Assembly: GCF_012927245.1 (NCBI RefSeq)
Contig: NZ_JABBGE010000003.1
Span: 434,001 to 498,000, forward strand
Source of the DNA: Streptomyces sp. R302
Lineage (GTDB): Bacteria > Actinomycetota > Actinomycetes > Streptomycetales > Streptomycetaceae
Direction of reading: 5' to 3'
DNA length: 64,000 nt
Shown here: positions 24,498-39,559 of the stretch, piece by piece
How the letters are laid out: each line of letters begins with the position of its first letter
Position numbering within the stretch: the first letter of the stretch is position 1
Position numbers and translations under genes: made by a program
Notes under the pieces: generated by a model
What the model saw: the letters and a program-made list of their open reading frames with translations, nothing else
Told to the model about the DNA's origin: nothing
Databases searched by the model: none

Positions 24498-24761
24498 TCA
24501 GCGTCCCGCCAGTTCCCAGATCGCGAGCAGTACCCCCGCGCCCGCGGTGAGCGCGGCGACGGAGGCGAGCGGCCAGCGGGACCGCTCCAGGTCGTCGAGC
24601 CTGGCCTCGTGGTCGGCGAGCTGCTTGTCGGTCTGGTCGCTGCGCTGGACGAGCAGGGCGAGCGAGCCGTCGACGCGGGCGAAGCCGGCTTCGAGGGTGC
24701 CGCGGAGCCGTTCCAGTTCGAGCGCGACCGCGACCGGGTCGTTCGGGTCAGCCTCGGTCAT
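24498..24761 (-). CDS. coiled-coil membrane protein of the lysis module
   Basis: This 87-residue protein has a long charged helix with heptad character (LELERLRGTLEAGFARVD through DHEARLDDLERSRWP, about residues 15-62), then one C-terminal transmembrane helix (LASVAALTAGAGVLLAIWEL). Its ATG overlaps the holin gene end by 14 nt. Small tail-anchored coiled-coil proteins beside holins are common in actinophage lysis cassettes and may act as antiholin or second holin, but the role here is inference. Last gene before the operon terminator. Confidence 0.65.
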   Translation of the reverse strand: MTEADPNDPVAVALELERLRGTLEAGFARVDGSLALLVQRSDQTDKQLADHEARLDDLERSRWPLASVAALTAGAGVLLAIWELAGR

Positions 24762-24981
24762 CGGCGCCGCCCTGTTCCGTCCGCAGCCAGGAGGGCAGCA
24801 GGAGCTGGACGGCGGGGACCGCCATGGCCCGGGTCAGGGCGCCGGCGACGGTGAGCGCGCCGGCGACCCAGGGGAGGGTGGCGGGGATGCCGGAGGCGTC
24901 GACGAGCGCGGGCAGGACCAGGGCGAGGGCGACGGCGGTCTGGAGGACGGTGCGGGCCGTGCGCTTCGCGGCTTCGGACAT
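24748..24981 (-). CDS. putative holin
   Basis: This 77-residue protein has two hydrophobic helices (TVLQTAVALALVLPALVDA, about residues 12-31, and LPWVAGALTVAGALTRAMAV, about 36-55) and a charged C-terminus. Size, topology and position between the amidase and a small coiled-coil membrane protein fit a phage holin that lets the endolysin reach peptidoglycan. ATG 24981 has GGAGAG upstream. It starts 12 nt after the amidase stop. Holins diverge greatly, so the call rests on topology and context. Confidence 0.65.
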   Translation of the reverse strand: MSEAAKRTARTVLQTAVALALVLPALVDASGIPATLPWVAGALTVAGALTRAMAVPAVQLLLPSWLRTEQGGADDRG

Positions 24982-24993
24982 GGGGGTCTCTCC

Positions 24994-25905
24994 TTACGGG
25001 GTGTGCGGGACCTTCAGCGCGTTCCAGGAGGTGGCGCCGGGCCAGCCGTCCGCGTCGGCGCCGCGGAAGCCGAGCTTGCGCTGCCAGGCCGCGTACGACT
25101 GGCGGTCGGCCTCGGTCCAGCGGGGGCCGGGGCCGATCCGGTAGCGGGCGCAGCCCTCGGCCGTCAGCCGGCGGCCCATCGCCGTGATCACCGGGGAGCT
25201 GGGGGCGTCCCGGAAGAACTGGGTGCCGGGGAAGGGGTGGTACTTCGGGGTGGCGGGCCTCGCCGGGGCGGTCGGCCTGGAGGCGGGGGCGGCGCCGAGC
25301 CGCTTCTGCACCCGGTCGCGCATGACGGGCATGGCGAAGCCCTTGGGGTCGCTCTTCCAGTCGGACCACTCCAGGTGGCCGATGACGGACTTGGCGCCCC
25401 AGCCGTGGGCCCGGCAGAGCGCGGCGGAGACCCGTTCGATCGCGTCGAGCTGGGCGGCCGGCCAGGGGTCGGTGCCGTTGCCGAGGTTGACGCACTCGAA
25501 GCCGTAGAAGCGGGAGTTGCCGTCGACGGCGCCGGCGCTGCCCTGGTGCTCGCGCGGGGCCGGGGGCCGGTCGCCGTACGCCTCGGTGACGACGGCCCGC
25601 AGGACGGACGGGTCGCCGCCGCCGGCGTGGTTGGCGCGGCCGTCGGAGACGAGGTGGACGGTGCCGTCCTTGGCGATGACGCCGTGGCAGAGCGGGCCGG
25701 GGAGTCCTGCGTAGCCGTCGAAGCACAGGGCTACGGAGGATGCGGTGCCGCTGGACACCGTGTGATGGATCATGACGCCGTTCACCGGACCCCAGGCGCC
25801 GACGCGGTTGCGGTGGTGGCCGCGCCAGCCGGGGTGCTCGACGACGGTGACGCCTTCGGCGCGGAGCGCGGCGAGGAGCCGGTCCGCGGAGAGGGGAGTG
25901 GCCAT
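24994..25905 (-). CDS. N-acetylmuramoyl-L-alanine amidase (phage-type endolysin)
   Basis: This 303-residue enzyme has no signal peptide. An N-terminal Amidase_2 domain (about residues 1-190) carries the zinc/catalytic motifs VMIHHTVSSG, CHGVIAKDGTVHLVSDG, YGFECVNLGNG and GHLEWSDWKSDP. A proline-rich linker follows, then a C-terminal domain ending TEADRQSYAAWQRKLGF and DGWPGATSWNALKVP, the putative peptidoglycan-binding repeat common in Streptomyces phage endolysins. It should cut the MurNAc-L-Ala bond. ATG 25905 has GGGAAT upstream. Together with the holin it gives the tail cluster a lysis route. Confidence 0.88.
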   Translation of the reverse strand: MATPLSADRLLAALRAEGVTVVEHPGWRGHHRNRVGAWGPVNGVMIHHTVSSGTASSVALCFDGYAGLPGPLCHGVIAKDGTVHLVSDGRANHAGGGDPSVLRAVVTEAYGDRPPAPREHQGSAGAVDGNSRFYGFECVNLGNGTDPWPAAQLDAIERVSAALCRAHGWGAKSVIGHLEWSDWKSDPKGFAMPVMRDRVQKRLGAAPASRPTAPARPATPKYHPFPGTQFFRDAPSSPVITAMGRRLTAEGCARYRIGPGPRWTEADRQSYAAWQRKLGFRGADADGWPGATSWNALKVPHTP

Positions 25906-25984
25906 GGAATTCCCTTCGACGGCCGGAGCGCCCCGCGGCGGCTCGGCCGTCGCGGGGCGCTCCGGAGGGGGCAGGAGGTACGGG

Positions 25985-27433
25985 TCAGGCGGCCAGGGCG
26001 GCCCAGATGGCGTTGGCGTCGGCCACCACCGTGGAGGGGGTGAAGGACGCCGGGAGCGAGGTCTGGCCCGTGGTGGACAGCCGGCCGTGCCGGACGAAGG
26101 CGCCGGGCATCCGGGCGCTGCCGCCCGGGAACTCGCCCACGCTCGCGGCACGGAGGAAGGCCGGACCGTTGTAGTTGGGGCTCGGCCCGTTGACCACCAG
26201 CGCGACCCAGTAGTGCCCCGGCTGCGCGTTGTAGGCGGTGGTCAGCGGGCACACCACGGTCTTGCCCTCGGTGGCGGGGATCAGCGTGGTGAGGCTGGCG
26301 GTGAGGCCGACCCGGGCTCCGGCACTGGTGTAGAGACCGGCGTACGAGGAGGCGCTCAGGGTGCCGCCGACATAGCCGGGGACGTAGAACACCACGTTCC
26401 GTACGGTGGTCGCGGCGTGCAGCGGCACGCCGATCAGGTAGACCGTGCCGTTGGTGCAGTACTGCACCTGGTCCGCCGAGGCCGCCGCCGGGTCGAACGC
26501 CCAGCCGGAGAAGCCCAGGGCGCCGGGGGTCCAGGTCCCGGTGGCCGCGACGGAGTCGACGTAGCTCTTGCGCGTGAGGTGGTCGGGGTTGGTCGGCGCG
26601 GTCGTGGAGAACGGCGGGGTGGTGAACACCTTGGCGCTCTCGATGGTCTGCGCCCCGGTGAGCAGGACCGCGTCCCCGGCCGCCACCGCCGACACGTCGG
26701 CGGCGCTCAGCTGCACCGCGCCCGCCTGCCCGTTGACGGAGGTGACGGGGGCGCCGTCGATCGCCAGATAGCGCAGGTCGCCGGCGGCCGGGGTGAGTGC
26801 GCCGAGGTCGGCGGCGGCCAGCACCACGTCGCCGGTCCGGCCGTTCACGGAGGCGACCGCGCCGCCCGCGGCCGGCAGCTGCTCCACCGGCACCTTCCCG
26901 TCGGCGCCCAGGGTGGCCACCCCGCCGGCGGTGCCGGCGGTGGTGGCCGCGAGGGCGGAGACGTCGGCGGCGGTCAGCACGATGTCCGCCGCGGTCTGGC
27001 CGTTGACGGACCGCACCGGTCCTGCGGGGCCCTGCGGGCCGAGTTCTCCGGCGGGGCCGGGCGGGCCCGGCACGGCGACGTAGTGCGGGGTGTTCGGGTC
27101 CGCCGGGCGGATGTCGGCCAGGTCGACCACGGGGTTCGCGGCGGGCAGGGCGATCTGGTAGACGCGTACCCGGTCCAGGCCGCCGAGCTTCTCGGTGACC
27201 TGGTACGTCCAGTCGACGGGGTTCCAGCCGGGGAGGTCGGTCGCCGGCAGGACGACGGTGAACCGGCCCTCGGCGTCGAGGGTGGCCCGGGTCGGACCGC
27301 CCACGAAGACATCGGCCTCGGCGTGGGTGAGCAGTGCGGGCGGCCGGAACTCGACGGACCCGCTCATGGGGCCGCCGTCCGGGGTGAGGTACCGGGCGGT
27401 GACCTGGACGGTGGAGAGGGACGGAGGCAGCAC
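25985..27433 (-). CDS. tail fibre / receptor-binding protein candidate with collagen-like segment
   Basis: This 482-residue protein begins with a beta-rich N-terminal domain (about 1-115). A short collagen-like VPGPPGPAGELGPQGPAG stretch follows, then repeats of the form SVNGQTAADIVLTAADVSAL, SVNGRTGDVVLAAADLGAL and SVNGQAGAVQLSAADVSAV, and a LTRKSYVDSV segment seen in many phage fibres. The ~200-residue C-terminal beta domain is likely the variable receptor-binding tip. Position between the hub/fibre genes and the amidase fits. Trimerisation and the cell-surface target are inferred. Confidence 0.75.
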   Translation of the reverse strand: MLPPSLSTVQVTARYLTPDGGPMSGSVEFRPPALLTHAEADVFVGGPTRATLDAEGRFTVVLPATDLPGWNPVDWTYQVTEKLGGLDRVRVYQIALPAANPVVDLADIRPADPNTPHYVAVPGPPGPAGELGPQGPAGPVRSVNGQTAADIVLTAADVSALAATTAGTAGGVATLGADGKVPVEQLPAAGGAVASVNGRTGDVVLAAADLGALTPAAGDLRYLAIDGAPVTSVNGQAGAVQLSAADVSAVAAGDAVLLTGAQTIESAKVFTTPPFSTTAPTNPDHLTRKSYVDSVAATGTWTPGALGFSGWAFDPAAASADQVQYCTNGTVYLIGVPLHAATTVRNVVFYVPGYVGGTLSASSYAGLYTSAGARVGLTASLTTLIPATEGKTVVCPLTTAYNAQPGHYWVALVVNGPSPNYNGPAFLRAASVGEFPGGSARMPGAFVRHGRLSTTGQTSLPASFTPSTVVADANAIWAALAA

Positions 27434-27573: not shown

Positions 27574-28290
27574 TCAGGACTGGACGCCGTACAGCGCCAG
27601 CGGGCGGCAGCGGACGGTGCCGCCCGCCGCCGCGACCTTCGCCTGGACCTCGAAGGTGACCGTCGCGCCGTAGTCGGCGGTGAGGCTCTCGGTGAAGACC
27701 AGGCCCGTTCCGGGCGTGCCCGACGGACCCACCGGGGTGCCGTTCACCAGGACCCGCACCTCGGCGCCGGCGGTCCCCTCGGCGGCGACCCGGCAGTGCA
27801 GGCGAGGGTGCTGGACGATGCCAGGACCGCGGTACAGCGTGGTCCACGTGGTCGATCCGGTGGACACCCAGCGGGTGGTGTCCACGGGCTCCGGCAGCGG
27901 ATAGGGGATGTAGGGGCGGGCGAGGCCGCGCTGGGCGGCGTCGTCGGCGACGACCACGTTCCCGCGCCGGTCGAGGATCTGCACGGGCTGGACCGGGAGC
28001 GTGTCGGGGCTGCCGGTCCAGACGGTCAGCGCGAGGGAGCCGTCGTCCCGCCGGACGACGAGGCCCTGCTGCGGGGTGTTCTCGTCCCGGCCGGGTTCGA
28101 CCCGGCCCAGGTAGAGCAGGTCCTCGCCGCCGGCCGTGCGGACCCGCAGCCGGCCGCCGTCGCCGATGACGACCTCGCCGCTGCTGATCTGGTTGAGTGC
28201 CGGGCTGGTGTTCGCGCTGCCCATCAGCTCGCGGACCTGGCGTTCCAGGGCGCGGATGCGGTCGAGCAGGTCGGTGGGGATGATCGCCAC
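27574..28290 (-). CDS. minor tail protein with N-terminal coiled coil
   Basis: This 238-residue protein starts at GTG 28290, 2 nt after the Gp37-like gene stop, with GGAAGGGG upstream. An N-terminal helix LDRIRALERQVRELM (about 8-22) is a probable trimerisation coil. It is followed by SGEVVIGDGGRLRVR, a turn-rich fibre-like segment, and a C-terminal beta-sandwich-like region (VLVNGTPVGPSGTPGTG). Such proteins accompany ReqiPepy6-type hub proteins in actinophage tails. Structural minor tail protein is the best reading. Confidence 0.65.
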   Translation of the reverse strand: MAIIPTDLLDRIRALERQVRELMGSANTSPALNQISSGEVVIGDGGRLRVRTAGGEDLLYLGRVEPGRDENTPQQGLVVRRDDGSLALTVWTGSPDTLPVQPVQILDRRGNVVVADDAAQRGLARPYIPYPLPEPVDTTRWVSTGSTTWTTLYRGPGIVQHPRLHCRVAAEGTAGAEVRVLVNGTPVGPSGTPGTGLVFTESLTADYGATVTFEVQAKVAAAGGTVRCRPLALYGVQS

Positions 28291-28292
28291 CG

Positions 28293-29399
28293 TCAGACCC
28301 CTTCCAGGTAGAGCGTGGCCGTCTCGGCCTTGGTGCGCTGCGGCGGGTTCACCGCCAGGCCGACGACGCGGTACTGCCGGTCGAGGCCCTCCGGATGCCA
28401 CAGGTCGTGGATCCGCAGCCGGACGCGGGCGCCGAGGAGCGCCGGGGTGATCCGCCCGTCGAGGACGACGGTGAGTTCCGGGATGGTCTCGGGGCGGTTC
28501 TGGCGCGACAGTTCGGCGGCGGCCAGGGAGCGCAGCGTCTCCTGGTCCTTCACCCCGCTGTGGTCGGAGGTCCGTTCCAGCCGGGGCCAGCCGCCGAGCA
28601 GGTCCTCGGACATCTCCGCCTCGACGGTGAGCGGCTGGGACTCCTGGGACTGGTCGGTGTTGGCCGATTCGCCGCGGGCCACCCACACGTTCGCCTGCAC
28701 GGTGGAGTCCGTGGGCAGGCTGTAGGTGAGGATCTGGCCCGGGTGGTCGAGCACGATGTCGGTGGTGCCCGTCTGGATCGTCGGGTGGCCCAGCTGGAGC
28801 CGCTTGACGCGGCGCCCCTGGGCGTCGCGGTAGCAGTGGATCCGCCACTCGAACCCGTCGGCGAGCTGGGCCAGCTTGTCGAGCAGTTCACGGATCCGGG
28901 CGAGGGCGGAGTAGGCGTACGCGTAGTCCCGCCGGACGCCCGACATCTCGTGGCCGAGGCTGATGTCGATCCGTCCGCCGGGCTGCTCCTCGGCGTGCGC
29001 GACGATCAGCCGGGCGATGTCGAACTGGTCGGTGGCGGTGCCGAGGAGGTCGGTGGAGAGGATGCGGTGGTCGAGGTACGAGTCGAAGGTGCCGGCCTGG
29101 AACTGCACCTTCAGGCGTCCCTGCTCGTCGGAGACCGGCGTACAGGTCCACAGCACACCGCCCCACCAGATGTCGCCGTCCCGCTCCAGCCAGACCGCGG
29201 TGCGGCCCGGCTGGAGCGCCTCCCGGGCCCGGGCGGCCAGGGAGCCGTCCGGGAGGGGGATCGTCGCGGTGAGCGAACCCGGCTTGCCGATGAAGTCGTC
29301 GAACTTCGCCTCGGTGAGCGGCAGCACGTCCACCACGCGGTCGGTGCGCAGGTCGCAGAAGAGCGCCCGGTAGGCGGGCGTCGTCGGGGATTCGGCCAC
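28293..29399 (-). CDS. Siphovirus ReqiPepy6 Gp37-like tail hub protein
   Basis: This 368-residue protein starts at GTG 29399, 8 nt after the preceding fibre-like gene. Segments such as CDLRTDRVVDVLPLTEAKFD, VWLERDGDIWWGGVLW and WVARGESANTDQSQ, and the C-terminal VRLRIHDLWHPEGLDRQYRV, match the Gp37-like family of actinobacterial siphophages. This family occupies the distal tail hub/tail-associated position. It probably forms the tip ring on which fibres are mounted. No lytic domain is visible in this one. Confidence 0.8.
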   Translation of the reverse strand: MAESPTTPAYRALFCDLRTDRVVDVLPLTEAKFDDFIGKPGSLTATIPLPDGSLAARAREALQPGRTAVWLERDGDIWWGGVLWTCTPVSDEQGRLKVQFQAGTFDSYLDHRILSTDLLGTATDQFDIARLIVAHAEEQPGGRIDISLGHEMSGVRRDYAYAYSALARIRELLDKLAQLADGFEWRIHCYRDAQGRRVKRLQLGHPTIQTGTTDIVLDHPGQILTYSLPTDSTVQANVWVARGESANTDQSQESQPLTVEAEMSEDLLGGWPRLERTSDHSGVKDQETLRSLAAAELSRQNRPETIPELTVVLDGRITPALLGARVRLRIHDLWHPEGLDRQYRVVGLAVNPPQRTKAETATLYLEGV

Positions 29400-30683: not shown

Positions 30684-31619
30684 TCACCAGTGGGAGTCGC
30701 GCCACAGCACGGTCACCGAGGCAGCGGGGTCCGGAGTGCTGTCGTTGGAGCGGAAGGCCAGGGCCGTCTCGCCGGGGGCGAGCGTGAAGAGCTGCTCGGG
30801 GGCGGAGGCGGAGGTGGCGGTGTAGAGCCGGGACGTGGTCCCGTTCAGCCGGACGGTGCCCGCCTCGGTGTCCACGGTCAGGACGTCCTGCGGGCCGAGC
30901 ACGATGTCGTACTGGAGCTGGCGGCCGTCGGAGAGCCGGGTCAGGGTCGGCCGGCGCAGCGGCCCCCGGAACTCGACCACCGGGTGGCTCGCGGCCGAGC
31001 CCGAGTTGACCGCGGTGAGGGTGCCGGCGACGCCGGCTCCGCCCCAGTCGAGCGGGAACTCCAGACCGCCGGCCGCGGGGCCCTGCCAGGACAGGCCCGG
31101 TTCCATGACGGGCAGTGCGGCCTCGCCCCTCAGGAGCCGGGCGCCGAAGCGCCGGGGATCGGTGGCGGTCCACTGCAGGCTGGTCTTCGTGGTGCCCTCG
31201 CGGACGTAGGAGCGGTCCTGCGGAACCACCTTGCGGCTGAGCCGGGCCCGTACCGCGAGTGTCTCGCCGTGCAGGCGCACGGCCAGCCATTCCTCGCCGC
31301 CGTCGGCTCCGGTCGCGGCGCGGAAGGCGGCGGTCACCTCGTGGGCCCGGTCGGCCGCGTCCGGCAGCAGCCAGACGGTCGCGCCGACCAGCCGGGGCTG
31401 GGCCCAGCGGGCGCCGGGCCAGGAGCCGTGCTGGTCGGGGCGGGGGATGTCACCGGTGTCCAGGACCGGGAGGTCGTCCCAGCCGGTGATGCCGGTGCGG
31501 TCGATCTGATACGGGGTACCGGGCCCCATCAGCAGGCCGGCCCACTGGATCTGCCCGTCGCGGGTGATCAGTGAGCCGGGTGCGGTGTCGGTCTGGTACC
31601 TGTCTGCGGTCTCGGCCAT
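30684..31619 (-). CDS. phage distal tail protein (Dit-like)
   Basis: This 311-residue protein has an N-terminal half with DGQIQWAGLLMGPGTPYQI and QWTATDPRRFGA, and a C-terminal half with a galectin-like beta-sandwich pattern (NSGSAASHPVVEFRGPL, VLGPQDVLTVDTEAGTV, FTLAPGETALAFRSND). This is the layout of siphophage distal tail proteins that close the tube and carry the hub. It directly follows the tape-measure genes, the canonical Dit position. ATG 31619 is used; it lies 35 nt after the tape-measure stop. Confidence 0.78.
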   Translation of the reverse strand: MAETADRYQTDTAPGSLITRDGQIQWAGLLMGPGTPYQIDRTGITGWDDLPVLDTGDIPRPDQHGSWPGARWAQPRLVGATVWLLPDAADRAHEVTAAFRAATGADGGEEWLAVRLHGETLAVRARLSRKVVPQDRSYVREGTTKTSLQWTATDPRRFGARLLRGEAALPVMEPGLSWQGPAAGGLEFPLDWGGAGVAGTLTAVNSGSAASHPVVEFRGPLRRPTLTRLSDGRQLQYDIVLGPQDVLTVDTEAGTVRLNGTTSRLYTATSASAPEQLFTLAPGETALAFRSNDSTPDPAASVTVLWRDSHW

Positions 31620-31654: not shown

Positions 31655-32941
31655 TCAGGCGGCCGCTGTCCGGTGGAGGAACAGCAGGTCGGCGGCGACG
31701 GCGAGCGGGCCGCGCCCCTCGGCCGCGTGGTAGGCGTGCAGCCTGACCCGCTCCGCGGGACGGGACGCGGCCTGCGTGCGGTGCCCGGCCTCGGCGGGCC
31801 GGAGCCGGTCCAGGGAGGCCAGTGGACGGACGGAGCCCGGTCCGCCGCCGGACGGGGGCTCGACGACGCCGCCCTCGGCGAGCTGCGGGATCTTCGGCAG
31901 GTCGACGCCGAACTTCTTGCCGAGGATGTTGACGCTGATGCTGTTGAGGCCGTCGATGACCCAGTTGGCGAAGGCGATGAGGCCGTTCAGCGGGCCCTTG
32001 ATCACGCCCAGCAGGTTCTGCATGCCGGTGGTGACGAAGTCGCCGATGCCGCGCAGGGTGCCGGACATGGCGTCCTTCACCCGGGTGAACATGTCGGGGA
32101 TCTTCTTCGTGATCCAGTCGAGGACGGGCTGGAGGACCTTCTTGAAGCCGCCCCAGGCGGCGCGGATGAGGCCGGTGACGGCGCGGGTCGCCGCGGAGAT
32201 GGCGGAGCGGGCGCCGGCGAACCCCTTCGACAGGGCGCCGCCGATCACCTTCACGACACCCGTGATGATCGTCCTGACCACGGTGAAGTAGGTCGAGATC
32301 ACCTTGGCGTACGCCTGGATCACCGGACCGAGGAACTTCCCGATCGCCCGGAAGACCTTGAGCACCTGGTCGAAGACCTGCTTCATGATCTTCTGTCCGG
32401 TCTCGGAGTTCATCGCGAAGGTGATGATCGCGGCGACGAGCGGCACGATCAGGCCCAGGACGAAGCCGAGCGGGTTGGCACGCATCGCCACGTTCACGGC
32501 CGTCATCGCGCCGGCGGCGACGGTGAGCCCGCCGCCGAGCAGGCCCATGAGGGTGGAGACGGTGCCGGACGCCTTGCCGAGCAGCCCCGCCATCGAGCCG
32601 AACAGGCCGGAGCCGGAGGCGATCGAGTTCAGCGGCCGGGTCGCCCCGCGGGCCCTGGTGCCCGTGCCCTTGAGCCGGGTGGCGGTGGTGCCGGCCGTCC
32701 GGCCGGTCTTGGTGAGCGACCTTCCGGCGGCCTCCGCGCGGGTCCTGACCTGGCGCAGCGCGGTACCGGTGGAGGCGGCGCCGCTCCTGATCCCGTCCAC
32801 GGCGGAACCCGCCCGGTGGGCGGAGCCCCCGAAGCCCTTGAGTGCCCGCCCCGCCTCGCCGAGCCGGGTGCGGAAGCCCGTCAGCGCCCCCGCGACCCCG
32901 GCGAGCGGGTCCAGGCGGGGGGCGAGCGCCGCCGCACTCAT
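31655..32941 (-). CDS. tape measure protein A
   Basis: This 428-residue protein has an Ala/Gly/Arg-rich helical N-terminus (about 1-110). A hydrophobic middle follows (GLLGGGLTVAAGAMTAVN, GFVLGLIVPLVAAIITFAM, about 135-175). The actinophage tape-measure C-terminal motif GPLNGLIAFANWVIDGLN with VDLPKIPQLAEGGVV comes next, and a final DLLFLHR. Tape measures fill the tail tube, set its length and cross the host membrane. It overlaps the next upstream tape measure by 4 nt (ATGA). The C-terminal motif and gene position make the family call firm; the short length is notable. Confidence 0.82.
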   Translation of the reverse strand: MSAAALAPRLDPLAGVAGALTGFRTRLGEAGRALKGFGGSAHRAGSAVDGIRSGAASTGTALRQVRTRAEAAGRSLTKTGRTAGTTATRLKGTGTRARGATRPLNSIASGSGLFGSMAGLLGKASGTVSTLMGLLGGGLTVAAGAMTAVNVAMRANPLGFVLGLIVPLVAAIITFAMNSETGQKIMKQVFDQVLKVFRAIGKFLGPVIQAYAKVISTYFTVVRTIITGVVKVIGGALSKGFAGARSAISAATRAVTGLIRAAWGGFKKVLQPVLDWITKKIPDMFTRVKDAMSGTLRGIGDFVTTGMQNLLGVIKGPLNGLIAFANWVIDGLNSISVNILGKKFGVDLPKIPQLAEGGVVEPPSGGGPGSVRPLASLDRLRPAEAGHRTQAASRPAERVRLHAYHAAEGRGPLAVAADLLFLHRTAAA

Positions 32942-34137
32942 CCGCGGGCCTTGGAGAGGAAGAGCAGGGCGTGGGCGGTCTCGCGCAGGTCGCTGGAGGA
33001 CGCCTCGTAGTAGTTCTCGATCTGGAATCCGGCGGTCGCGCCGGTACCGGCGTTCAGCGCCTCGGCGCGGGCGCGGCGGGCGGTGTGGCGCATCAGGCGG
33101 TCCAGCTTGGACAGCGGCAGGACGGCCTCGGCCTCACCGGCCTCGGCGACGATGGTGTGGACGCCGCCCCGGCGGGGCTGGACGACACCACCCTGGGCGA
33201 GCCGGGGAATGGTGGGCAGGCTGACGCCGAAGGTCTTGCCGCCGACCAGGGGTACCCAGCCGGGGATCGAGACCTTGATCCCGTTGAGCTTGCGGATCGC
33301 GGAGTTGATGAGGTCGATGACGGCGTTGATCGGGCCCTTGACGGCGCCCTTGATCTTGTCGAAGGCCCGGCCGGCGATGTCCTTGAGCCCGCCCCAGATG
33401 CGGGAGAGCTTGTCCTTGACGGCGGTGAACGCCTTCGGGACGACGTTCTTGATCCAGTTGACGACGGGGGTGATGACCTTCTTGATGCCGTTCCAGACGC
33501 TGGAGATCACCTTCTTGACGGCGTTCATCACCGTCGTGATGATCTTCTTCCAGGCGTTGAAGTAGGTCTTGATGACCTTGGCGACGGCCTTGATGACGAC
33601 CGTGATCGCCTTCTTGATGCCGTTCCAGACCTTCTTGATCAGCGCCCCGGCCTTCTTCATGATCGGGCCGACGACCTTCATGACCGAGCTGATGACCTTC
33701 TTGATCGCACCGAAGGCGACCTTGAGGATCTTCTGCATGGTCTTGGAGCGGGTGGCCATCTCGACCACCTTCTCGATGAGCGGCGCGAAGAGCGCGAGCA
33801 GGGTGCCGATGATGTTGCCCTTCATCGACTTGTTCAGGCCCTTCATGCCCTTGGACGCCTTGTCGGCGCCGGACTTGAACTTCCCGACCTGGGTGCCGCT
33901 CTTCTGCCCGGTCCTCCCGGCCTTGGCCATGGACCGCTCGGCCTTGTCCGCGGCGCGCTGCATCTTCTGCAGCTCTGTGGCCGCCCGCTGCGAACTCGTA
34001 CGCACCTTGGAGACGCCGCGGTCGGCGGTGACCGCCTGGCGTCCGAGCCCTGCGGTGGCGCGGTTCGCCGTATCCGTAGCCGACTTGAACTGTCTGAGCG
34101 AGCCGGACGCCCGCCCGAGGGAGCTTCTCAATGACAT
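32938..34137 (-). CDS. tape measure protein B (paralogue)
   Basis: This 399-residue protein has a basic helical N-terminus, then a long series of WNGIKK/VMKVV-type amphipathic repeats (KKVWNGIKKAITVVIKAV, SVWNGIKKVITPVVNWI). The same C-terminal block as tape measure A follows: GPINAVIDLINSAIRKLNG, SLPTIPRLAQGGVV, and a final AHALLFLSKARG. The shared ends and ATGA coupling indicate a duplicated tape-measure gene rather than a split one. By the usual ~1.5 angstrom per residue, each would specify a tail of only about 60 nm. Confidence 0.8.
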   Translation of the reverse strand: MSLRSSLGRASGSLRQFKSATDTANRATAGLGRQAVTADRGVSKVRTSSQRAATELQKMQRAADKAERSMAKAGRTGQKSGTQVGKFKSGADKASKGMKGLNKSMKGNIIGTLLALFAPLIEKVVEMATRSKTMQKILKVAFGAIKKVISSVMKVVGPIMKKAGALIKKVWNGIKKAITVVIKAVAKVIKTYFNAWKKIITTVMNAVKKVISSVWNGIKKVITPVVNWIKNVVPKAFTAVKDKLSRIWGGLKDIAGRAFDKIKGAVKGPINAVIDLINSAIRKLNGIKVSIPGWVPLVGGKTFGVSLPTIPRLAQGGVVQPRRGGVHTIVAEAGEAEAVLPLSKLDRLMRHTARRARAEALNAGTGATAGFQIENYYEASSSDLRETAHALLFLSKARG

Positions 34138-34191: not shown

Positions 34192-35091
34192 TCATCCGAG
34201 CCGGGAGATCAAGGTGGCCGTTGCCGACTCGAGCGCCCGGAGCTGGCTGACCTCCTGGTCCATGCGGACCTGGGCCCGCCGGTTCGCACGGGACGCGGGG
34301 AGGGTCCCGAAGGCACGCCGCCGGCCCAGCCGCTCGGCCTGGCCGGAGACGCGCTCCCTGGTGGTACGCGCCTGGGTCTGGCGGTCCTTCAGGAGAGCTC
34401 GGAGGGCGCTGTCGTGGGCCGACAGCTTGCGGTCGACGCCCTTCCGCCACGGATCCAGCCGGTTGAGCACCTTCTGGATCAGTTTGTTGTTCGACGATTC
34501 GCCGCGGGCGGGCCGCGCGTCGGCCCGCCCGTCCGTCGAGGGCCGGGAGTCGTCGGGCGTGTTCCCGGACGTGCCGTCGAGGATGCCCGGCACGCCGGTG
34601 CCGCTCGTCCTCCTCGCTGCCCGCTCGTCGGCCGACAGGGCGGTGCCTTCGAGCCAGGTGGTGAGGGGGTTCTTCAGGACGGTGACACCGGCGACCTTGA
34701 CCCCGGACTCGTCGATGGTGAAAAGGCTGGGGTCCCACTTGAATACCTGGTTGCTGGAGTAGACCATCTGCTGGGCGACGTTCTGCTCGCCGAGGTCCAC
34801 CGGCCCGATGCTGGTTTCCGAGACATTCCAGAAAAGCCAGTTCTTGTTGTCCGCAGCGGCCTGGTCCTGATCTTTCGCAATGCTTTCCTTGAGGGCCCTG
34901 ACGAGTCGTGAGACCTCCGTCTCGGGCAGCTCTTTCTGCTCGTTGAGGCCACGGACGACGGATTCGACTTCACCGGAGCCGACGAAGTCCTCCGCGCTGA
35001 GCCTCGCGTCGAGTCTCGCGCTGATTCTTTCTTCGAGTTCCTGGCTGGTCACATAGTCCGGTTTGCCCTCCGGATTCGGGGAAGTGGTCAT
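34192..35091 (-). CDS. hypothetical protein inserted between chaperone and tape-measure genes
   Basis: This 299-residue soluble, highly charged protein starts at ATG 35091 with GGAGA upstream. The first ~90 residues are helical and acidic (TSQELEERISARLDARL); the middle is mixed (NKNWLFWNVSETSIGPV, NPLTTWLEGTALSADERA). The last ~90 are basic and helical (RQTQARTTRERVSGQAERL). No family recognised. Local GC and codon use are lower than in flanking tail genes around 34700-34950, which suggests separate acquisition. A short divergent gene for a membrane protein lies 46 bp upstream. It could be tail cargo, a moron, or a tail accessory protein. Confidence 0.65.
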   Translation of the reverse strand: MTTSPNPEGKPDYVTSQELEERISARLDARLSAEDFVGSGEVESVVRGLNEQKELPETEVSRLVRALKESIAKDQDQAAADNKNWLFWNVSETSIGPVDLGEQNVAQQMVYSSNQVFKWDPSLFTIDESGVKVAGVTVLKNPLTTWLEGTALSADERAARRTSGTGVPGILDGTSGNTPDDSRPSTDGRADARPARGESSNNKLIQKVLNRLDPWRKGVDRKLSAHDSALRALLKDRQTQARTTRERVSGQAERLGRRRAFGTLPASRANRRAQVRMDQEVSQLRALESATATLISRLG

Positions 35092-35137
35092 GAGGTCTCC
35101 TTCCTCCGCGGTGATCGTTTTGGCATGATGGGCGACC

Positions 35138-35536
35138 GTGCAGACTCTTGTGGACGTACTGTTCGGCACTGTGGTCATCGGCGGCGTGGTGGCGCTCTTC
35201 CTCTTCTCCGCCGCCCGCCTCTTCTCCCTCGTGTGGCTGAAATGGAAGGGGGTGGCGACGGAAGGAAGGTGCCTCGATGTCACGCTGGGGAAGAATGCCA
35301 GCACCGCTCATATCGCCTACGCGGCGCCCGACGGAAAGACGCGCTTCACGAAGGCGCGCACGCATTCGCTTGCGCAGGGGCTTCCCGGGGAGATCTGGGA
35401 CGTGGTGTACATCCCGTCGTTCCCGAGTGTCTCGGCGGCAGCTCCGGTCACCTTCGGCAGGATTGCCGGAGGGGTGGTGATCGTCGCGCAGACGACCGGG
35501 CTCATGGTTTTCACCCTGTACTACTTCACACGTTGA
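35138..35536 (+). CDS. small membrane protein, DUF3592-like
   Basis: This 132-residue protein is the only plus-strand gene inside the tail operon. Start is GTG 35138. It has an N-terminal transmembrane helix (VVIGGVVALFLFSAARLF, about 12-30), a ~60-residue extracytoplasmic or cytoplasmic beta domain (GRCLDVTLGKNASTAHIAY, DGKTRFTKARTHSL), and a second helix (IAGGVVIVAQTTGLMVFTL). The topology fits DUF3592-like proteins. It is divergent from the 299-residue gene and ends in a bidirectional terminator, so it is expressed independently of the tail operon. Immunity or moron function is only a hypothesis. Confidence 0.7.
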   Translation: MQTLVDVLFGTVVIGGVVALFLFSAARLFSLVWLKWKGVATEGRCLDVTLGKNASTAHIAYAAPDGKTRFTKARTHSLAQGLPGEIWDVVYIPSFPSVSAAAPVTFGRIAGGVVIVAQTTGLMVFTLYYFTR

Positions 35537-35579
35537 GCACGGCCCGACTCCGATCGAATCGTGGGCGGGCCGTGCTCAA
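35533..35579. terminator. bidirectional terminator between convergent genes in the tail cluster
   Basis: TTGAGCACGGCCCG and CGGGCCGTGCTCAA form a 14-bp perfect inverted repeat that overlaps the stop codons of both the plus-strand membrane protein and the minus-strand GT chaperone. It would isolate the divergent accessory pair, and on the minus strand could also limit readthrough into the tape-measure genes. Confidence 0.75.
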
Positions 35580-36282
35580 CTGAAGAAGCGGGCGATTTCC
35601 ATGGGGCCGGGTGAGGACCCTCCGGATTCCGGTTCCGCGTTCGGCCCCGCACCGTCCGTGTCGGGCGGGGCATCGTCGCCCGGCCGCGGCACCGGGACCG
35701 GCGCCTCCGGCGGGTCGGCGTCCTCGTCCGTGTTGACGGAGGCGAACATCCAGTTGGCGGCGGCGAGATGGTCGACGGCGGCGGCCAGCAGATAGTCGGT
35801 GACCGTCCACTGGGAGTCCTCGCCGCTCTGGGCCCGGGCCACGGCGCTGTCCTGTGGCATGTGCCTGATCAGCACCGCGAGCCGGCGGGAGGAGAGCCGG
35901 CCGCGGTGCCAGTCGAGCAGGTCCACGCCGTAGTGCCGGAGCAGGTCGGCTTCGAGGGCCTCGGCGTGTTCTTCGGCGAACGCGTCGAGGCTCAGCCTTC
36001 CCCCAGGCCCAGCCCCGTCTCCTTGCCGTACGCCTCAAGGATCGCGGCGATGTCCTGCATGGTGATGTCGTGGGTCTCGAAGCGTCCGAACTGCTCCTCG
36101 CCCATCAGCAGCTTCAGCAGGCCGTCCACGTCGTTGTCGTCGAGCCCGCGCAGCGACTTGGCCACGGAGCGGGAGAGTTCGGTGGGCAGCTGGAAGGTGT
36201 CGCCGTCGAGCTCGAAGGACCAGGAGCGGCCGAGTGCCTCCATGCGCTGGGCGCGGGCGGCGTTGACGTCGAAGGAAGCCAT
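35576..36282 (-). CDS. tail assembly chaperone GT fusion (predicted -1 frameshift product)
   Basis: The T part lies in the -1 frame of the G gene, has no good start of its own, and overlaps the end of G. If ribosomes slip back one base at GGGGGAA (35998-36004), residue 95 of G continues RLSLDAFAEEHAEALEADLL, then YGVDLLDWHRGRLSSRRL and AVLIRHMPQ, a hallmark of actinophage T domains. The tail is acidic and proline-rich, for a total of about 235 residues. GT coats the tape measure and recruits tube subunits during assembly; it is not in the finished tail. The slip site is inferred from frame and position. Confidence 0.75.
35992..36282 (-). CDS. tail assembly chaperone G
   Basis: This 96-residue, mostly helical protein (MASFDVNAARAQRMEALGRS; LRGLDDNDVDGLLKLLMG; ITMQDIAAILEAYGKETGL) is the unshifted product. 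It ends GLGEG-stop just after a run of five G. Position between the tube and the tape measures, and overlap with a -1 frame T domain, match the conserved G/GT chaperone arrangement of siphophages. G is normally made in large excess over GT. ATG 36282 has a weak upstream purine tract. Confidence 0.78.
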   Translation of the reverse strand: MASFDVNAARAQRMEALGRSWSFELDGDTFQLPTELSRSVAKSLRGLDDNDVDGLLKLLMGEEQFGRFETHDITMQDIAAILEAYGKETGLGLGEG

Positions 36283-36371: not shown

Positions 36372-36968
36372 TTACACGGCGGCGTAGGCGCCGTCCTTCA
36401 TGACGAAGGTGGCCAGGGCCTGGCCCTCGCCCGGCGACAGGGCGGTGAAGGTGACGCCGAGCATCGCCGCGGCCTTGCGGGCGAGCTTGAGGTCGTCGGT
36501 GGCCGTCACCTGGCCGCGCGGGATGACGAAGCGGTACGTGACCGCGGAGCCGTCGGTGAACTCCAGGCCCAGGGCCCGCTCGTCGAAGGTCGGACCGTCC
36601 GGCACGTCGAACTCGTAGACGCCCGGGTTGTTGGTGGCGTCGTTGCGGAAGTCCGTCTTCTTGCCGCCGAGGAAGAACGGCAGCGTGTCCTCGTTGAACT
36701 GCAGCATCGAGAACTTCAGCGTCAGGTCGCGGTCCGCGTAGACGAAGCGGGCCGGGCTGATCGACTGCCAGGTCTCCACCGGGTCGAGCTTGTCCTTCTT
36801 GGAGAAGGTCACGCCGTCGGTGGAGGTGTAGCCGAGGTCCGTCCAGCCGGCACCCCAGTCGGTGGCGGGGTTGTCGGTGAAGGTCGTCGGCAGCGCCGCG
36901 CCGACCTCGGCGACGAGGATGCGGCCGGTGCCGGCGACGCGGATCTCGGAGGCGTTGTTGCCTGCCAT
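36372..36968 (-). CDS. major tail tube protein
   Basis: This 198-residue protein is beta-rich with MAGNNASEIRVAGTGRILVA, DLGYTSTDGVTFSKKDKLD, PVETWQSISPARFVYADRD and LGLEFTDGSAVTYRFVIPRG. This is the pattern of actinophage phage_tail_tube subunits that stack as hexamers. ATG 36968 has AAGGAG 5 nt upstream, a strong site fitting a high-copy structural protein. A sheath gene is absent, so the tail is the non-contractile type. It is the second gene of the tail operon. Confidence 0.85.
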   Translation of the reverse strand: MAGNNASEIRVAGTGRILVAEVGAALPTTFTDNPATDWGAGWTDLGYTSTDGVTFSKKDKLDPVETWQSISPARFVYADRDLTLKFSMLQFNEDTLPFFLGGKKTDFRNDATNNPGVYEFDVPDGPTFDERALGLEFTDGSAVTYRFVIPRGQVTATDDLKLARKAAAMLGVTFTALSPGEGQALATFVMKDGAYAAV

Positions 36969-37069
36969 GTGTACTCCTTGATGGGTTGGGTGGTGCGGGG
37001 TGTCCGCCGTGGGTACGGCGAAGGCCCCGCCGGTCGGCGGGGCCTTGTCTGTGGGCACGGGCGGGTGGG

Positions 37070-37477
37070 TCAGCCCGTGCGGAGGGACAACCGCAGGACG
37101 CAGAGGTAGCGGTTGGCCGCGGTGTAGACGTAGTCGGGCAGCCAGCGGGGGCCGTCCGCCTCGGCGACGTCGCTGATGAACGTCGTGCCGTACGTGGTGC
37201 CGGCGGCGTGCAGCAGTTCCGCCCGGGCCGCGTTGGCGAGCAGGTGCGCGGTCGGCTTGTCGGGCCCGTAGCACTCCAGCTCGATCAGGGGCTGGTCGAG
37301 ATGGAGGTCGTCGATCCAGGCCCCGCCGCGGCGGGAGACGATCACCGCCTTCTGCGTGCCGTCGAAGCCCGCCGGCGGGGTGTCGTCGACGATCGCGTCC
37401 GCCAGCTCCGGCCGGTCGGAGAGGAGGTCCACGACGATGGCCTCCACGTCCGGGAAGGTGCTCGGTGCTGAGCTCAT
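37070..37477 (-). CDS. tail terminator / head-tail joining-like protein
   Basis: This 135-residue alpha/beta protein (FPDVEAIVVDLLSDRPEL, DQPLIELECYGPDKPTAH, AANRYLCVLRLSLRTG) is of the size and style of siphophage tail-terminator proteins that cap the tube at the head-proximal end. It is the first gene of the tail operon, preceding the tube gene by 101 nt. ATG 37477 has AGGAGTGATGCC upstream. In a headless particle it would close the tube end. Other neck and head proteins are not found upstream. Confidence 0.72.
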   Translation of the reverse strand: MSSAPSTFPDVEAIVVDLLSDRPELADAIVDDTPPAGFDGTQKAVIVSRRGGAWIDDLHLDQPLIELECYGPDKPTAHLLANAARAELLHAAGTTYGTTFISDVAEADGPRWLPDYVYTAANRYLCVLRLSLRTG

Positions 37478-37583
37478 GACGTGGCATCACTCCTGTGGGA
37501 AGGGGACGGGGGAGGGGGCGTGGGAAACGCGACGGCGGAGCCGTGCCCTGGAGGGATGCGGGCACAGCTCCGCCGCTGCATCC

Positions 37584-37618
37584 ATTGTGATTGATAGCGC
37601 GCGAGCGCGCAACTAGTT
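37584..37618 (-). promoter_or_regulatory. tail operon promoter with overlapping GC palindrome
   Basis: On the minus strand TTGCGC (37612-37607), 17 nt, CACAAT (37589-37584) forms a plausible promoter about 107 nt upstream of the first tail gene. Its spacer is filled by the palindromic GCGCGCTCGCGCGC. The -35 flank CACGAACTAGTTGCGCGC recurs with few changes upstream of the whiB-like gene. Confidence 0.45.
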
Positions 37619-37766
37619 CGTGCGAGAGCGATCGTTTCGTTCGAGCGGGTGGGTCCGGTTCCGGCGCGTGGGGGCGTGGTGAGTGGTTCGGATCCCGAGG
37701 GGGCGCTACCCTCGGGCATCCGTAGATATTCGAATGAACATTCGATTCGATGGTGGAGAGGTGGGG

Positions 37767-38063
37767 GTGCGTGTGGTCGGCGGAGGCGGCAGTGCGCAGG
37801 AGCGGCTGACCGAGGTGGTCGTGGCGGCCGTGGAGGTCGCCGCCGAGGCGGGGGAGGCCGGGCGGTACACCGGGGATGTCGGACGGACCCTCGCCGCGGT
37901 GGTGGGCAAGGTCGGCGCGAGGATCGCCGTGGACGCGGAGGTCCGCGGCTTCGCCAGCGGATGGCAGGAGGCCCTGGGCGGGGCGGCGGCCCGGACCGTC
38001 CGAGCCGGGTCGCGGAGGGGCGCGCAGGTGCGGACGGGTCCCGAGGGGGGCGTCGGAACATGA
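37767..38063 (+). CDS. small hypothetical protein divergent from the tail operon
   Basis: This 98-residue protein starts at GTG 37767 with GGAGAG 6 nt upstream; an earlier in-frame ATG at 37734 would encode AT-rich codons unlike the rest. From 37767 on, third positions are strongly G/C, which supports coding. The sequence is Ala/Val/Glu-rich and helical (QERLTEVVVAAVEVAAEAG, VGRTLAAVVGKVGARIAVD) with a basic end. No family recognised. It faces the tail operon across a 290-bp region with palindromes and could be a regulator or a structural accessory. Confidence 0.6.
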   Translation: MRVVGGGGSAQERLTEVVVAAVEVAAEAGEAGRYTGDVGRTLAAVVGKVGARIAVDAEVRGFASGWQEALGGAAARTVRAGSRRGAQVRTGPEGGVGT

Positions 38064-38190
38064 GCGCGGACAGACGCGGAGAGGCGGCCGCCCCACAGGG
38101 CGACCGCCTCTCCGCGTCTTCGGTCCGGTCGGGCCGGCCTCCGGTCCCGGGGCCTGCCGGGACCGACGTGCTGTGGTGCGGCCCGGACCG

Positions 38191-38406
38191 TCACCCGCTC
38201 GCGCGCTCCGGCCCCGGGCGTCCGAGGCGTACGGTCCGCTCGGCGGCGAACACGTCCTCCAGCCGGTAGAGCAGGGACCGCCCCTGCCGGCCCGCCGGCG
38301 CGAGATGGCCCAGCTGGACCCACTTGCGGATGGTCGCGGGCACGACACCGGCCTCCTCGGCGGCCAGCGCGGCGTTGATCAAGGGGGAGACCGCGGCGGT
38401 GGTCAT
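38191..38406 (-). CDS. MerR/excisionase-like helix-turn-helix protein
   Basis: This 71-residue protein has AALAAEEAGVVPATIRKWV followed by QLGHLAPAGRQGRSLLYRLEDV. This is the winged HTH of excisionase/MerR-type DNA-binding domains (binding helix ATIRKW, wing around GRQGR). ATG 38406 has GGAGGAGT upstream and overlaps the preceding gene stop (ATGA). With no integrase nearby, it is more likely a transcriptional regulator of the tail cluster than a true excisionase. Confidence 0.72.
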   Translation of the reverse strand: MTTAAVSPLINAALAAEEAGVVPATIRKWVQLGHLAPAGRQGRSLLYRLEDVFAAERTVRLGRPGPERASG

Positions 38407-39119
38407 CGGCGTACTCCTCCGTCGGCGACGTCCATGGACCGTGCGAGTTCGGCGCGGTCGGCGCCCCCGGCCTCCGCCAGCACCTCCCAGGCGCCCTCCG
38501 GCCAGACGTGGCGCAGGGCCGGATCGGTGCGGCAGTCGCACTCCTCGTCGGTGCAGCGGCAGGCGGGGTTCACGCACAGGACCGCACGGCGCGCCGGGAA
38601 GGCCCGCAGGGACACCGAGTCGCACCAGGGGCACCGGCCGCGGACCCGCACGATGGTCTCGGAGTCCCCGAGCGTCCGGCCGCAGCGCCGGGCCATCCGC
38701 CGCGCCTCGTTCCGCACGTGTGCGAGGAGCGCCGGTTCGTTCTCCGTCCGGTCCAGCAGGGCGAGGATCCGGGCGAGCCGTTCGGGCACCCGTGCGCGCG
38801 GGGGCCGGCCGAGCCCGAGCCCGGCGTGCACGGCCTCGTCGAGCTCGACGACACCGTCGGTGATGTCACGGATGGCGTCGGAGACGTGCAGGCGCAGGGG
38901 CGCCGTCGAGTGGCCGGGCACGGTGAGTCCGTGCCGCTGCTCCATGAGCAGGGCCTCGCGGCGCTCCTGGCGCGACGCCTCGGCGTCCTGGGCGGTCGCC
39001 TGCCGAGCGGGCCTCCCGGACGGGCCGGTCCGCCCGGGGGCGAGTTCGGTGAGCAGCTCGGGGAACTGCCGCAGCAACGCTTCGATCCAGAGCGACGCGT
39101 CCTGTGCCGGCGTGGTCAT
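38403..39119 (-). CDS. hypothetical protein with C-terminal zinc ribbon
   Basis: This 238-residue, mostly helical protein has many Arg residues. The C-terminal part holds CPWC (about 174) and CVNPACRCTDEECDC (about 192-206), which could bind one or two zinc ions. The helical N-terminus starts ASLWIEALLRQFPELLTEL. The ATG overlap with the MerR-like gene implies cotranscription. Nucleic-acid binding is plausible given the ribbon, but no family could be assigned. Confidence 0.65.
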   Translation of the reverse strand: MTTPAQDASLWIEALLRQFPELLTELAPGRTGPSGRPARQATAQDAEASRQERREALLMEQRHGLTVPGHSTAPLRLHVSDAIRDITDGVVELDEAVHAGLGLGRPPRARVPERLARILALLDRTENEPALLAHVRNEARRMARRCGRTLGDSETIVRVRGRCPWCDSVSLRAFPARRAVLCVNPACRCTDEECDCRTDPALRHVWPEGAWEVLAEAGGADRAELARSMDVADGGVRR

Positions 39120-39259
39120 GGGGCCTCCTGGCGGTGCGGTGGTGGGGTCGGCGGGCGGCGGGCCCGGGGTGCGCGGGCGGCCGGCGCCGGTCGGTGTACG
39201 CGGGACGTCGTCGAGGGACCGGCGGAGACGGCGTAGCTTCCCTACGCGCGGAGTACGCG

Positions 39260-39559
39260 TCAGTCATCGACCTTTGTCCGGGAACATCCGAATGGTTCGT
39301 GCGACCTCGCAACGGAGGTGAGCCGCAGGCGCGCCGGTCGGCCGTTGCGCCACAGGCGGCCCGCGGCGACACCGTCGAAGAAGGTGTCGGCCGGTGCCAC
39401 GGTCTCCTCGCAGTGGTGCGTGACCGGGCAGGCTCGGCATGCCATCAACGCAGGCAGGGCCTCCGATTCCCGACGGGCGAAGATCACCCGGGGCGGCAGG
39501 CCCAGACAGGCGGCCGCGGCGCGCCAGTCGTCGGGCTCCGCGGTTTCGGGCAGGGGCAT
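39260..39559 (-). CDS. WhiB-like iron-sulfur transcription factor
   Basis: This 99-residue protein has the four-cysteine WhiB pattern: AAACLG, then CRACPVTHHC (Cys-x2-Cys-x5-Cys), preceded by DWRAAAAC. This ligates a [4Fe-4S] cluster that tunes binding to the sigma factor and DNA. The usual G[VI]WGG turn is replaced by DGVAAGRLWRNGRPAR, with the basic DNA-binding tail kept; such deviation is common in phage-borne WhiB proteins. ATG 39559 has GGGAGCC upstream. It lies at the head of the minus-strand regulatory genes, divergent from the XRE gene. It may activate or time the tail operon. Confidence 0.85.
   Translation of the reverse strand: MPLPETAEPDDWRAAAACLGLPPRVIFARRESEALPALMACRACPVTHHCEETVAPADTFFDGVAAGRLWRNGRPARLRLTSVARSHEPFGCSRTKVDD

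Follow-up and report, generated by a model that had tools for sequence, protein, structure and literature searches.

A headless siphophage-type tail cluster between rpoC and rpsL of Streptomyces carries an exchangeable gene pair that may encode a tail-borne effector and its immunity protein

Gene content of the rpoC-rpsL interval

The interval between rpoC and rpsL in Streptomyces sp. R302 holds genes for a siphophage-type tail and for lysis, together with a pair of adjacent genes, here called X and P, that are the main subject of this text. The stretch analysed, hereafter the window, comprises 64,000 nucleotides (contig NZ_JABBGE010000003.1, positions 434,001 to 498,000), and coordinates given without a locus label refer to it. 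A preliminary description of this DNA had claimed a headless siphophage-type tail and lysis cluster, in canonical phage gene order, on one strand and with intact frames. Open reading frames (ORFs), the pattern of GC content at third codon positions (GC3), and scans against PHROGs and Pfam, by which the cluster was set on the minus strand, confirm this between the end of rpoC at 20903 and the start of rpsL at 41523. The tail and lysis genes listed there stand; X, P, the WhiB-like character of 39260-39559 and an HTH_3 gene had all been missed.

Read in the direction of transcription, the tail genes begin with the tail terminator (37070-37477; phrog_123, E value (E) 2.5e-24), the major tail tube protein (36372-36989; PF25681, E 2.9e-66; phrog_117), the tail assembly chaperone G (35992-36282; phrog_10551, E 2.4e-27) and its GT extension in the -1 frame (35576-36034; phrog_3656, E 3.7e-29). 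At the stop of G, the sequence CTG GGG GAA G[GA]C TGA contains a putative slippery stretch, G GGG GAA (35998-36004, minus strand); it was spotted by eye, CTG GGG GAA being invariant in the 12 of 48 loci displayed, and a simple heptamer search for a G/GT frameshift site gave no match. X and P follow, and then two tape measure proteins, TMP1 (32938-34137, 399 amino acids (aa); phrog_3981, E 4.9e-32) and TMP2 (31655-32941, 428 aa; phrog_3981, E 1.5e-34), which are paralogues of each other (29.6% identity, E 1.9e-51). At about 0.15 nm per residue, tape measures of 399-428 aa would predict tails roughly 60-65 nm long. The tip is represented by the distal tail protein Dit (30684-31619; PF22768; phrog_5577, E 5.4e-92), a structural protein like gp18 of phage SV1 (29408-30619; phrog_3398, E 1.3e-91), a Gp37-like baseplate hub (28293-29399; phrog_1885, E 8.7e-94; 50% identical to the hubs of phages SV1 and Attoomi), the tip protein p245 (27574-28305; phrog_9849, E 3.8e-93) and a tail fibre (25985-27433; phrog_14726, E 1.2e-146). 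The family phrog_3398 is labelled 'head and packaging', yet its SV1 homologue gp18 sits between Dit and the hub.

At the lysis end lie an amidase endolysin (24994-25905; PF01510, E 2.5e-23), a holin-like small membrane protein (24748-24981; phrog_4316, function unknown), a candidate holin by its 74% identity to SV1 gp22, and the conserved protein orf87 (24498-24761; phrog_5225, function unknown; 74% to SV1 gp23), all of them, like the tail genes, on the minus strand. Hence all tail parts of an F-type tailocin are present (terminator, tube, chaperones, tape measure, Dit, hub and fibre), as are release-type lysis genes, namely the amidase and the holin-like gene. As the preliminary description had it, portal, terminase, capsid, sheath and integrase are missing from the PHROGs and Pfam matches of the 20 proteins scanned in the interval, the label of phrog_3398 aside.

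A hypervariable gene and its small partner

Scanning genome contigs with the window's Dit protein yielded 54 Streptomyces loci (L033-L086), the nearest being L033 of Streptomyces sp. AC1-42W (Dit 97% identical); L043 and L084 are records of S. griseus. For the 48 loci of this first set that have both GT and TMP1, the gap between the two is 1.1-2.9 kilobases (kb), L042 with 4.7 kb being the exception. The gap contains X, an ORF of about 190-380 aa that ends just before TMP1 (34192-35091, minus strand, in the window). With the window included, 47 X sequences were extracted, of which L045, L054, L072 and L074 have a doubtful frame or start; L060 was handled separately. X is the outlier of the cluster. 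Between L054 and L055, and between L055 and L058, the tail genes are 94-100% identical and X is 30% and 25% identical, respectively; between the window and L033 the hub is 98% and X 25% identical. The fibre, by comparison, was measured in eight close pairs; its identity there is 85-99%, in most of them far higher than that of X. Exchange of a hypervariable gene (25-30%) within a conserved backbone (94-100%) is a pattern expected of effector-immunity systems.

In one broad group of 19 X proteins, the alignment leaves only two invariant glycines, and many X proteins share a C-terminal ending of leucine heptads, with [AR]-[LF]-[GSA] as the last residues. For the window's X, neither PHROGs nor, above the cut-off, Pfam gives a match. 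PHROGs searches with 19 X proteins gave scattered matches, the best, at 2e-8, to a minor head protein (3 of 19), and a few X proteins other than the window's have weak matches to tape-measure, fibre or minor-head families. Profile searches of the PDB with X and P returned weak matches, mostly to coiled coils or designed proteins, and neither three X queries nor one P query matched any of 50,697 phage records. Two roles for X were considered and set aside: that of a general pore-former is unsupported by hydropathy against shuffled sequences for many X proteins, the window's included, and that of a split piece of a tape measure does not agree with the window's X fitting no tape-measure profile and with TMP1 and TMP2 being paralogous to each other.

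The gene P is placed between GT and X and in most loci runs opposite to X (35138-35536, plus strand, in the window). The two starts are 46 bases apart in the window and, judged by eye, mostly 15-120 bases apart elsewhere; an overlap of X and P, once considered, was dropped, as the genes are adjacent and divergent. In L056 and L066, P is on the strand of X. Two or more transmembrane (TM) segments are present in 31 of the 35 P candidates examined, the window's P having two; the remaining four are a remnant in L055 and three soluble proteins of one class, each about 220 aa long (L037, L039, L040). Positive charges cluster after the first TM segment, with 143 lysines and arginines in the 22-residue loop starts versus 28 and 16 in the 15-residue outer flanks, which suggests that P has a cytoplasmic loop. 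Three P proteins match DUF3592 below the Pfam cut-off, and the window's P matches nothing. In the clade L073-L083, which is without a recognised P, a conserved ORF of about 257-330 aa on the opposite strand and a small ORF of about 70-110 aa lie between GT and X, near 4.8-5.9 kb.

Co-inheritance of X and P

Across the 32 loci in which both genes were assigned, the locus nearest in X is also the nearest in P in 15, compared with a mean of 1.06 and a maximum of 6 over 2000 permutations. The nearest neighbour by backbone matches the X neighbour in only 4 of the 32 and the P neighbour in 4. A second P in L055 proved on inspection to be a broken remnant, and its omission leaves the agreement at 15 of 32; exclusion of neighbours with a backbone similarity of at least 0.8 gives 16 of 32 (null mean 1.07, maximum 7). 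Matching X and P neighbours on distant backbones are exemplified by L055-L041, L056-L066, L064-L065, L063-L068 and L033-L035.

A replication set of 29 further loci contained eight in which both X and P scored at least 0.12 to the first set. In all eight usable loci, which represent five classes and hence are not fully independent, the partner of the X-matched locus ranks in the top 3 of 32 (null mean 2.25, a result unreached in 5000 permutations). The type of the adjacent partner thus follows the type of X, as expected of an effector and its immunity protein, with 21 of the 29 further loci unclassed. Moreover, three loci with a classed X hold two or more intact P genes that differ from one another (L068, L094/L180, L166), and in each of them the P nearest to X is the matching one.

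P genes without a matching X

Several sites carry P genes beyond those of an X/P pair. In L042, one X is accompanied by four P-like ORFs, all of which group in the large cluster of P sequences. Two have full length and two TM segments, and the other two are altered, at 105 and 323 aa, with a single TM segment each; the best matches of the four are in L084, L071, the window (50% identity) and L038. Three P genes lie in the genome G170 (L125:7536-9269), with rpsL on one side and a duplicated 3' fragment of rpoC on the other, ahead of that genome's own tail cluster, and one of them is 87% identical to the P of L062; the duplication suggests that the locus has been exchanged by recombination at rpoC. 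In L055, the broken P remnant (5418-5909, minus strand) resembles the P of the sister locus L054 and lies beside a new X/P pair of a different type, farther from X.

A profile search of 199 Streptomyces genomes returned 109 P matches at E <= 1e-8, of which 17, by hand count, fall within 20 kb of a G match. Three of the other 92 lie within 5 kb of the end of rpoC (two in G029, one in G136), against a random expectation of about 0.05 by hand arithmetic for 8.6-Mb genomes. Both are tail-less rpoC-rpsL sites, neither having a Dit or G match; L154, from G029, has in addition a faint X match (E 6.5e-4). G114, G119 and G079 were at one point taken for sites of the same kind and were rejected, because a second tail type, together with X and P, is present there; only G029 and G136 are counted. 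Lone P homologues elsewhere (L161, L164, L165) are 50-58% identical to the P genes of cassettes. Since P occurs without X, both alone and in arrays, it is unlikely to be a mere helper of X, and the arrays of L042 and G170 and the tail-less sites of G029 and G136 are what orphan immunity genes would look like if P has the proposed role. Retention of immunity genes after displacement of their effectors, with spread driven by recombination, is described for the type VI secretion system (T6SS) of Vibrio cholerae (PMC5361080).

Frame integrity and selection

Frames were counted only where a contig spans the gene, with the window included. They are intact for p238, a conserved gene at the head of the cluster, in 31 of 31 loci, for the terminator and the tube in 44 of 45 each, for G and GT in 48 of 48 each, for TMP1 and TMP2 in 52 of 52 each and for Dit in 54 of 55. 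At the tip, the counts are 55/55 for the phrog_3398 protein, 54/54 for the hub, 50/51 for p245 and 34/34 for the fibre, and at the lysis end 47/47 for the amidase, 46/46 for the holin-like gene and 47/47 for orf87. Two of the four failures fall in L086, apparently a long-read assembly. The values of dN/dS (ratio of nonsynonymous to synonymous substitution rates), which are rough given strong codon bias and high GC, are below 1 in 11 close pairs, the sole exception being the short holin gene in two of nine pairs.

Neither frequent inactivation nor relaxed selection, both of which the preliminary description had named as grounds for refuting its reading, is therefore seen, apart from G056 (L119), G012 and the holin gene in those two pairs. 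In L119, the rpoC-rpsL site holds a deletion remnant (16632-17204) composed of a frame-disrupted start of X and then the end of an amidase-like gene, and the idea that it represents an orphan X was dropped for that reason.

Distribution and absence of heads

The gene order of the cluster, traced by tblastn, is largely kept in the 54 loci. The fetched stretch shows rpoC in 38 of them and rpsL in 8, and the other 16 are short contigs or have a different location; the position at rpoC-rpsL, for which the preliminary description had proposed a synteny comparison, thus holds in many species. The fibre is unrecognised in L072-L083, L085 and L086, in L042 neither the fibre nor p245 is recognised, and p238 is inverted in L047, L054, L055 and L058. 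Some Dit match, prophages counted, occurs in 47 of 199 Streptomyces species genomes, and the cluster's G chaperone in 33 of 199; at least 16 of these 33 G-bearing clusters are within 20 kb of rpoC by hand comparison of coordinates, the remainder being elsewhere or undecided. Beyond the genus, a scan of 150 genomes of the family gave Dit matches (E <= 1e-40) in 22 genomes from 8 of 17 genera. Fourteen family-level loci were fetched, ten of them from other genera (L140, L142 and L143 are probably from the same genomes as L035, L067 and L072), and rpoC is in the stretch in 8 of the 14.

Head genes of the SV1/Attoomi type, the type to which the tblastn head test was confined, were found in none of the 54 loci, none of the 13 loci L091-L103 and none of the 14 family-level loci. 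The same test was positive in L090 and L104-L108, all of them prophages. An adjacent set of head and packaging genes, which the preliminary description had thought damaging to its reading, was not matched in the rpoC-rpsL interval or, by this test, in related loci. An SV1-like prophage lies on the same contig at about 653-672 kb (L089/L090), about 180 kb from the tail cluster, with matches for terminase, portal, head-morphogenesis, connector, tail-tip and lysis genes and no match for the SV1 major capsid. The window's genome also has an isolated second homologue of the G chaperone (78%; L170, G000:C21:19420-19701), with no other tail gene recognised nearby.

Twenty stretches (L109-L128) were taken as presumed empty sites or for comparison, and they include the cluster of G170 and the remnant L119. 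The spacing between rpoC and rpsL is 361-1603 bases in 13 of them and 2.8, 7.4 and 15.3 kb in three, with rpsL outside the stretch in L113 and L124. Unrelated genes, 7-15 kb or more, fill the interval in L113, L115 and L116. Because some stretches have a wider spacing with unrelated genes, the interval accepts other insertions too.

Phage relatives and a second tail type

The tail-tip and lysis genes are 37-74% identical to those of phages SV1 and Attoomi and stand in the same order. These phages have heads and a single long tape measure, of 805 and 1141 aa by coordinates, with the chaperones just before it, whereas the present cluster has two short paralogous tape measures, X and P, and no matched head; in neither phage is there an X between GT and the tape measure, nor an X/P pair. 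G matches just 2 of 50,697 phage records, both from phage Rowa at 32% (terminator and GT were outside this search), and PHROGs does hold a chaperone family of the same length as G, phrog_10551. In IMG/VR, the search for close relatives of G gave a single contig of 11.3 kb (L181, IMGVR_UViG_2862207470_000003); it is catalogued as a virus, and only genes of the headless tail cluster are recognised on it.

Searches with P and G also revealed a second tail type, which has the same half from terminator to tape measure and the same lysis genes, a different tip and, mostly, the WhiB-like and p238 genes. It is found at rpoC in L158, L159 and L160 and, with no rpoC in the stretch, in L155, L156, L163, L166, L173, L174, L175 and L179. 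Clusters of this type in L158, L160, L163, L166 and L174 draw on the same X/P types, and the cassette is therefore common to both tail types.

Flanking and putative regulatory genes

On the left flank, rpoC (17004-20903, plus strand) is an ORF of 1299 aa, the C-terminal 500 residues of which are present in 198 of 199 Streptomyces genomes with 93-99% identity among the matches listed, the window excepted; on the right, rpsL (41523-41894, plus strand) is 99-100% identical in relatives. At the head of the cluster lie p238, a Cys-rich conserved protein (38403-39119, minus strand) with 23-24% identity to Arthrobacter phage proteins, and a WhiB-like regulator (39260-39559, minus strand; PF02467, E 7.6e-6, above the cut-off) with cysteines at positions 18, 41, 44 and 50. 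Divergent from the latter is an HTH_3 gene of the XRE type (39664-40185, plus strand; PF01381, E 1.5e-8); of 74 related loci searched, many of them stopping short of the gene, 35 gave a homologue. The WhiB-like and HTH_3 genes may regulate the cluster. No TTA (bldA) codon was found in the 17 cluster genes checked, a promoter scan gave no site, and PADLOC gave no match for the five proteins tested. Between rpoC and the lysis genes (20975-24301, minus strand) lie a PQQ_2-type protein (22763-24301), recognised in only one related locus (L036), and two unmatched ORFs.

Interpretation of the cluster

The absence of matched heads, the intact frames, the purifying selection and the synteny favour the proposal of the preliminary description that the cluster is a domesticated F-type tailocin and not a decaying prophage. 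Judged from its genes, the F-type tailocin-like reading is well supported, and the predicted particle is domesticated rather than a remnant. A contractile system, be it an R-type tailocin or an extracellular contractile injection system, was set aside, with no sheath among the PHROGs and Pfam matches.

Taken as a whole, the findings are in our judgment best explained, at somewhat better than even confidence, by a domesticated headless tail with an exchangeable pair of X as effector and P as immunity protein. The cluster would encode a long-domesticated, headless, non-contractile tail resembling F-type tailocins, and the producer would release the particles by lysing some of its cells. Most clusters also hold the exchangeable pair, of which X is a coiled-coil protein made beside the tape measures and P is a small membrane protein, or a soluble one in one class. 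X would most likely travel in or on the tail and reach the envelope or the cytoplasm of the target cell, where it may kill or complete a lethal channel. Siblings holding the matching allele would be protected by P, whose production would not depend on the tail operon. New X/P pairs would displace the old X by recombination, and the old P would sometimes be kept, giving rise to orphan immunity genes. An effector with its immunity protein appears the most economical reading of X and P.

Several observations weigh against this explanation. X matches no toxin family, and a hydrophobic segment exceeding shuffled sequences is found in only some X types, the window's X having none. Several X and P frames were chosen by the analyst from ORFs, with some starts doubtful, and 21 of the 29 replication loci are unclassed. 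A Mantel test on all pairs of loci gives a weak correlation between X and P (rho 0.165, a value reached by 42 of 2000 permutations), since the types are for the most part unrelated to one another. No P is recognised in L072-L083 or in most loci of other genera, and P resembles the DUF3592 kind below the cut-off, so that some lone P matches may be unrelated. In addition, the cluster has been lost or rearranged in some species: G056 (L119) retains a mere remnant, and that of G012 (L099, L172) is split or partial.

The closest rival is a plain F-type tailocin, in which the tail itself kills and the fibres set specificity, X being no toxin but a fast-evolving structural part, such as a coiled coil resembling a third tape measure or a fibre, and P a protein of the superinfection-exclusion type that blocks penetration by tails with a matching X. 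The coiled-coil-like nature of X, its place directly upstream of TMP1, the weak tape-measure, fibre or minor-head matches of a few X proteins and the want of a toxin family would all suit such a part, and exclusion proteins acting on tape measures are known (PMC10883804; PMC13190303). One would not, however, expect a structural part to be replaced by unrelated sequence in a tail that is otherwise nearly identical; the X queries found no phage relative, and the fibre, which would set specificity, is far more conserved than X in most of the close pairs. On the exclusion reading, X would be the part of the tail that is ejected and touches the envelope. The effector-immunity and exclusion readings both predict allele-specific self-protection, and we regard the latter as unlikely yet a serious contender.

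Less probable still is that the particle acts inside the producer's own colony, in developmental cell death or a stress response, with the WhiB-like and HTH genes tying it to development. These two genes do stand at the cluster head, and the contractile injection system of Streptomyces offers a precedent (PMC10066040). Against this stand allele swapping between species and orphan P genes, neither of them needed for development, the occurrence of G in just 33 of 199 species, the amidase and holin-like genes and the lack of TTA codons in the 17 genes checked. It is very improbable that the cluster donates tails to a head-only satellite, to the SV1-like prophage of the same genome or to a gene transfer agent: that prophage does carry terminase, portal and head-morphogenesis genes on the same contig, but it has its own Dit, tip and lysis genes, no matched head genes accompany the cluster in any of the 54 loci, and G is almost without relatives in phage records. 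The least credible reading is a decaying prophage, for which one could cite the likeness of the tail-tip and lysis genes to SV1 and Attoomi and the remnants or partial clusters of L119 and L099/L172; frames intact nearly everywhere, purifying selection, a conserved frameshift site and presence in several genera speak against it and led to its rejection.

Known systems and significance

Like the clusters of F-type pyocins and similar flexible phage-tail bacteriocins, the present one occupies a fixed chromosomal site and has the genes for a headless, non-contractile tail (tube, chaperones, tape measure, tip and fibres) and for lysis. F-type tailocin clusters are not known to carry an immunity gene. 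The present cluster differs from them in the X/P pair between GT and the tape measures, in its two short paralogous tape measures and in its filamentous actinobacterial host. In pore-forming colicin operons, the immunity gene encodes a small membrane protein and runs opposite to the toxin gene; unlike there, X lies in a tail cluster, and no colicin domain was matched. The contractile injection systems of Streptomyces (CIS/SLP) are also domesticated phage-tail-like particles, whereas the tail here is of the siphophage type, with no sheath matched.

The effector-immunity modules of the T6SS in Vibrio cholerae likewise consist of an exchangeable pair in a conserved tail-like machine, with orphan immunity genes and recombination (PMC5361080); the machine here would be a non-contractile tail without a sheath, with X as a putative toxin. 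HK97 gp15, Ltp, Sie2009 and SNIPE are envelope proteins that act on components ejected by siphophage tails (PMC10883804, PMC13190303); unlike these tape-measure exclusion proteins, P tracks the type of X and is encoded alongside the tail that it matches. According to a review of contractile systems, immunity proteins that counter their antibacterial effectors had yet to be identified (PMC10598620), and the killing mechanism of F-type, or flexible, tailocins 'remains largely unknown' according to another review (PMC8910223). Among the titles listed in our literature search, which had preprints and most subscription journals outside its scope, none is on this locus or on an immunity gene in an F-type tailocin.

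Flexible F-type tailocins are known, and the swappable X/P pair inside such a cluster would be the new part. The evidence is about evenly balanced on a wider proposal, namely that a non-contractile tail serves as a delivery machine for polymorphic effectors, in which X, loaded next to the tape measures, decides who dies and P confers allele-specific immunity, kept as orphans by strains that have lost or replaced the weapon. Such a machine would be the first effector-immunity system on a siphophage-type tail in the literature searched and would explain the killing by some F-type tailocins. If X and P are an effector-immunity pair, killing by flexible tailocins becomes directly testable, and a tail-based kin-recognition system, sited by rpoC and rpsL, would be added to the antibiotic-producing Streptomyces.

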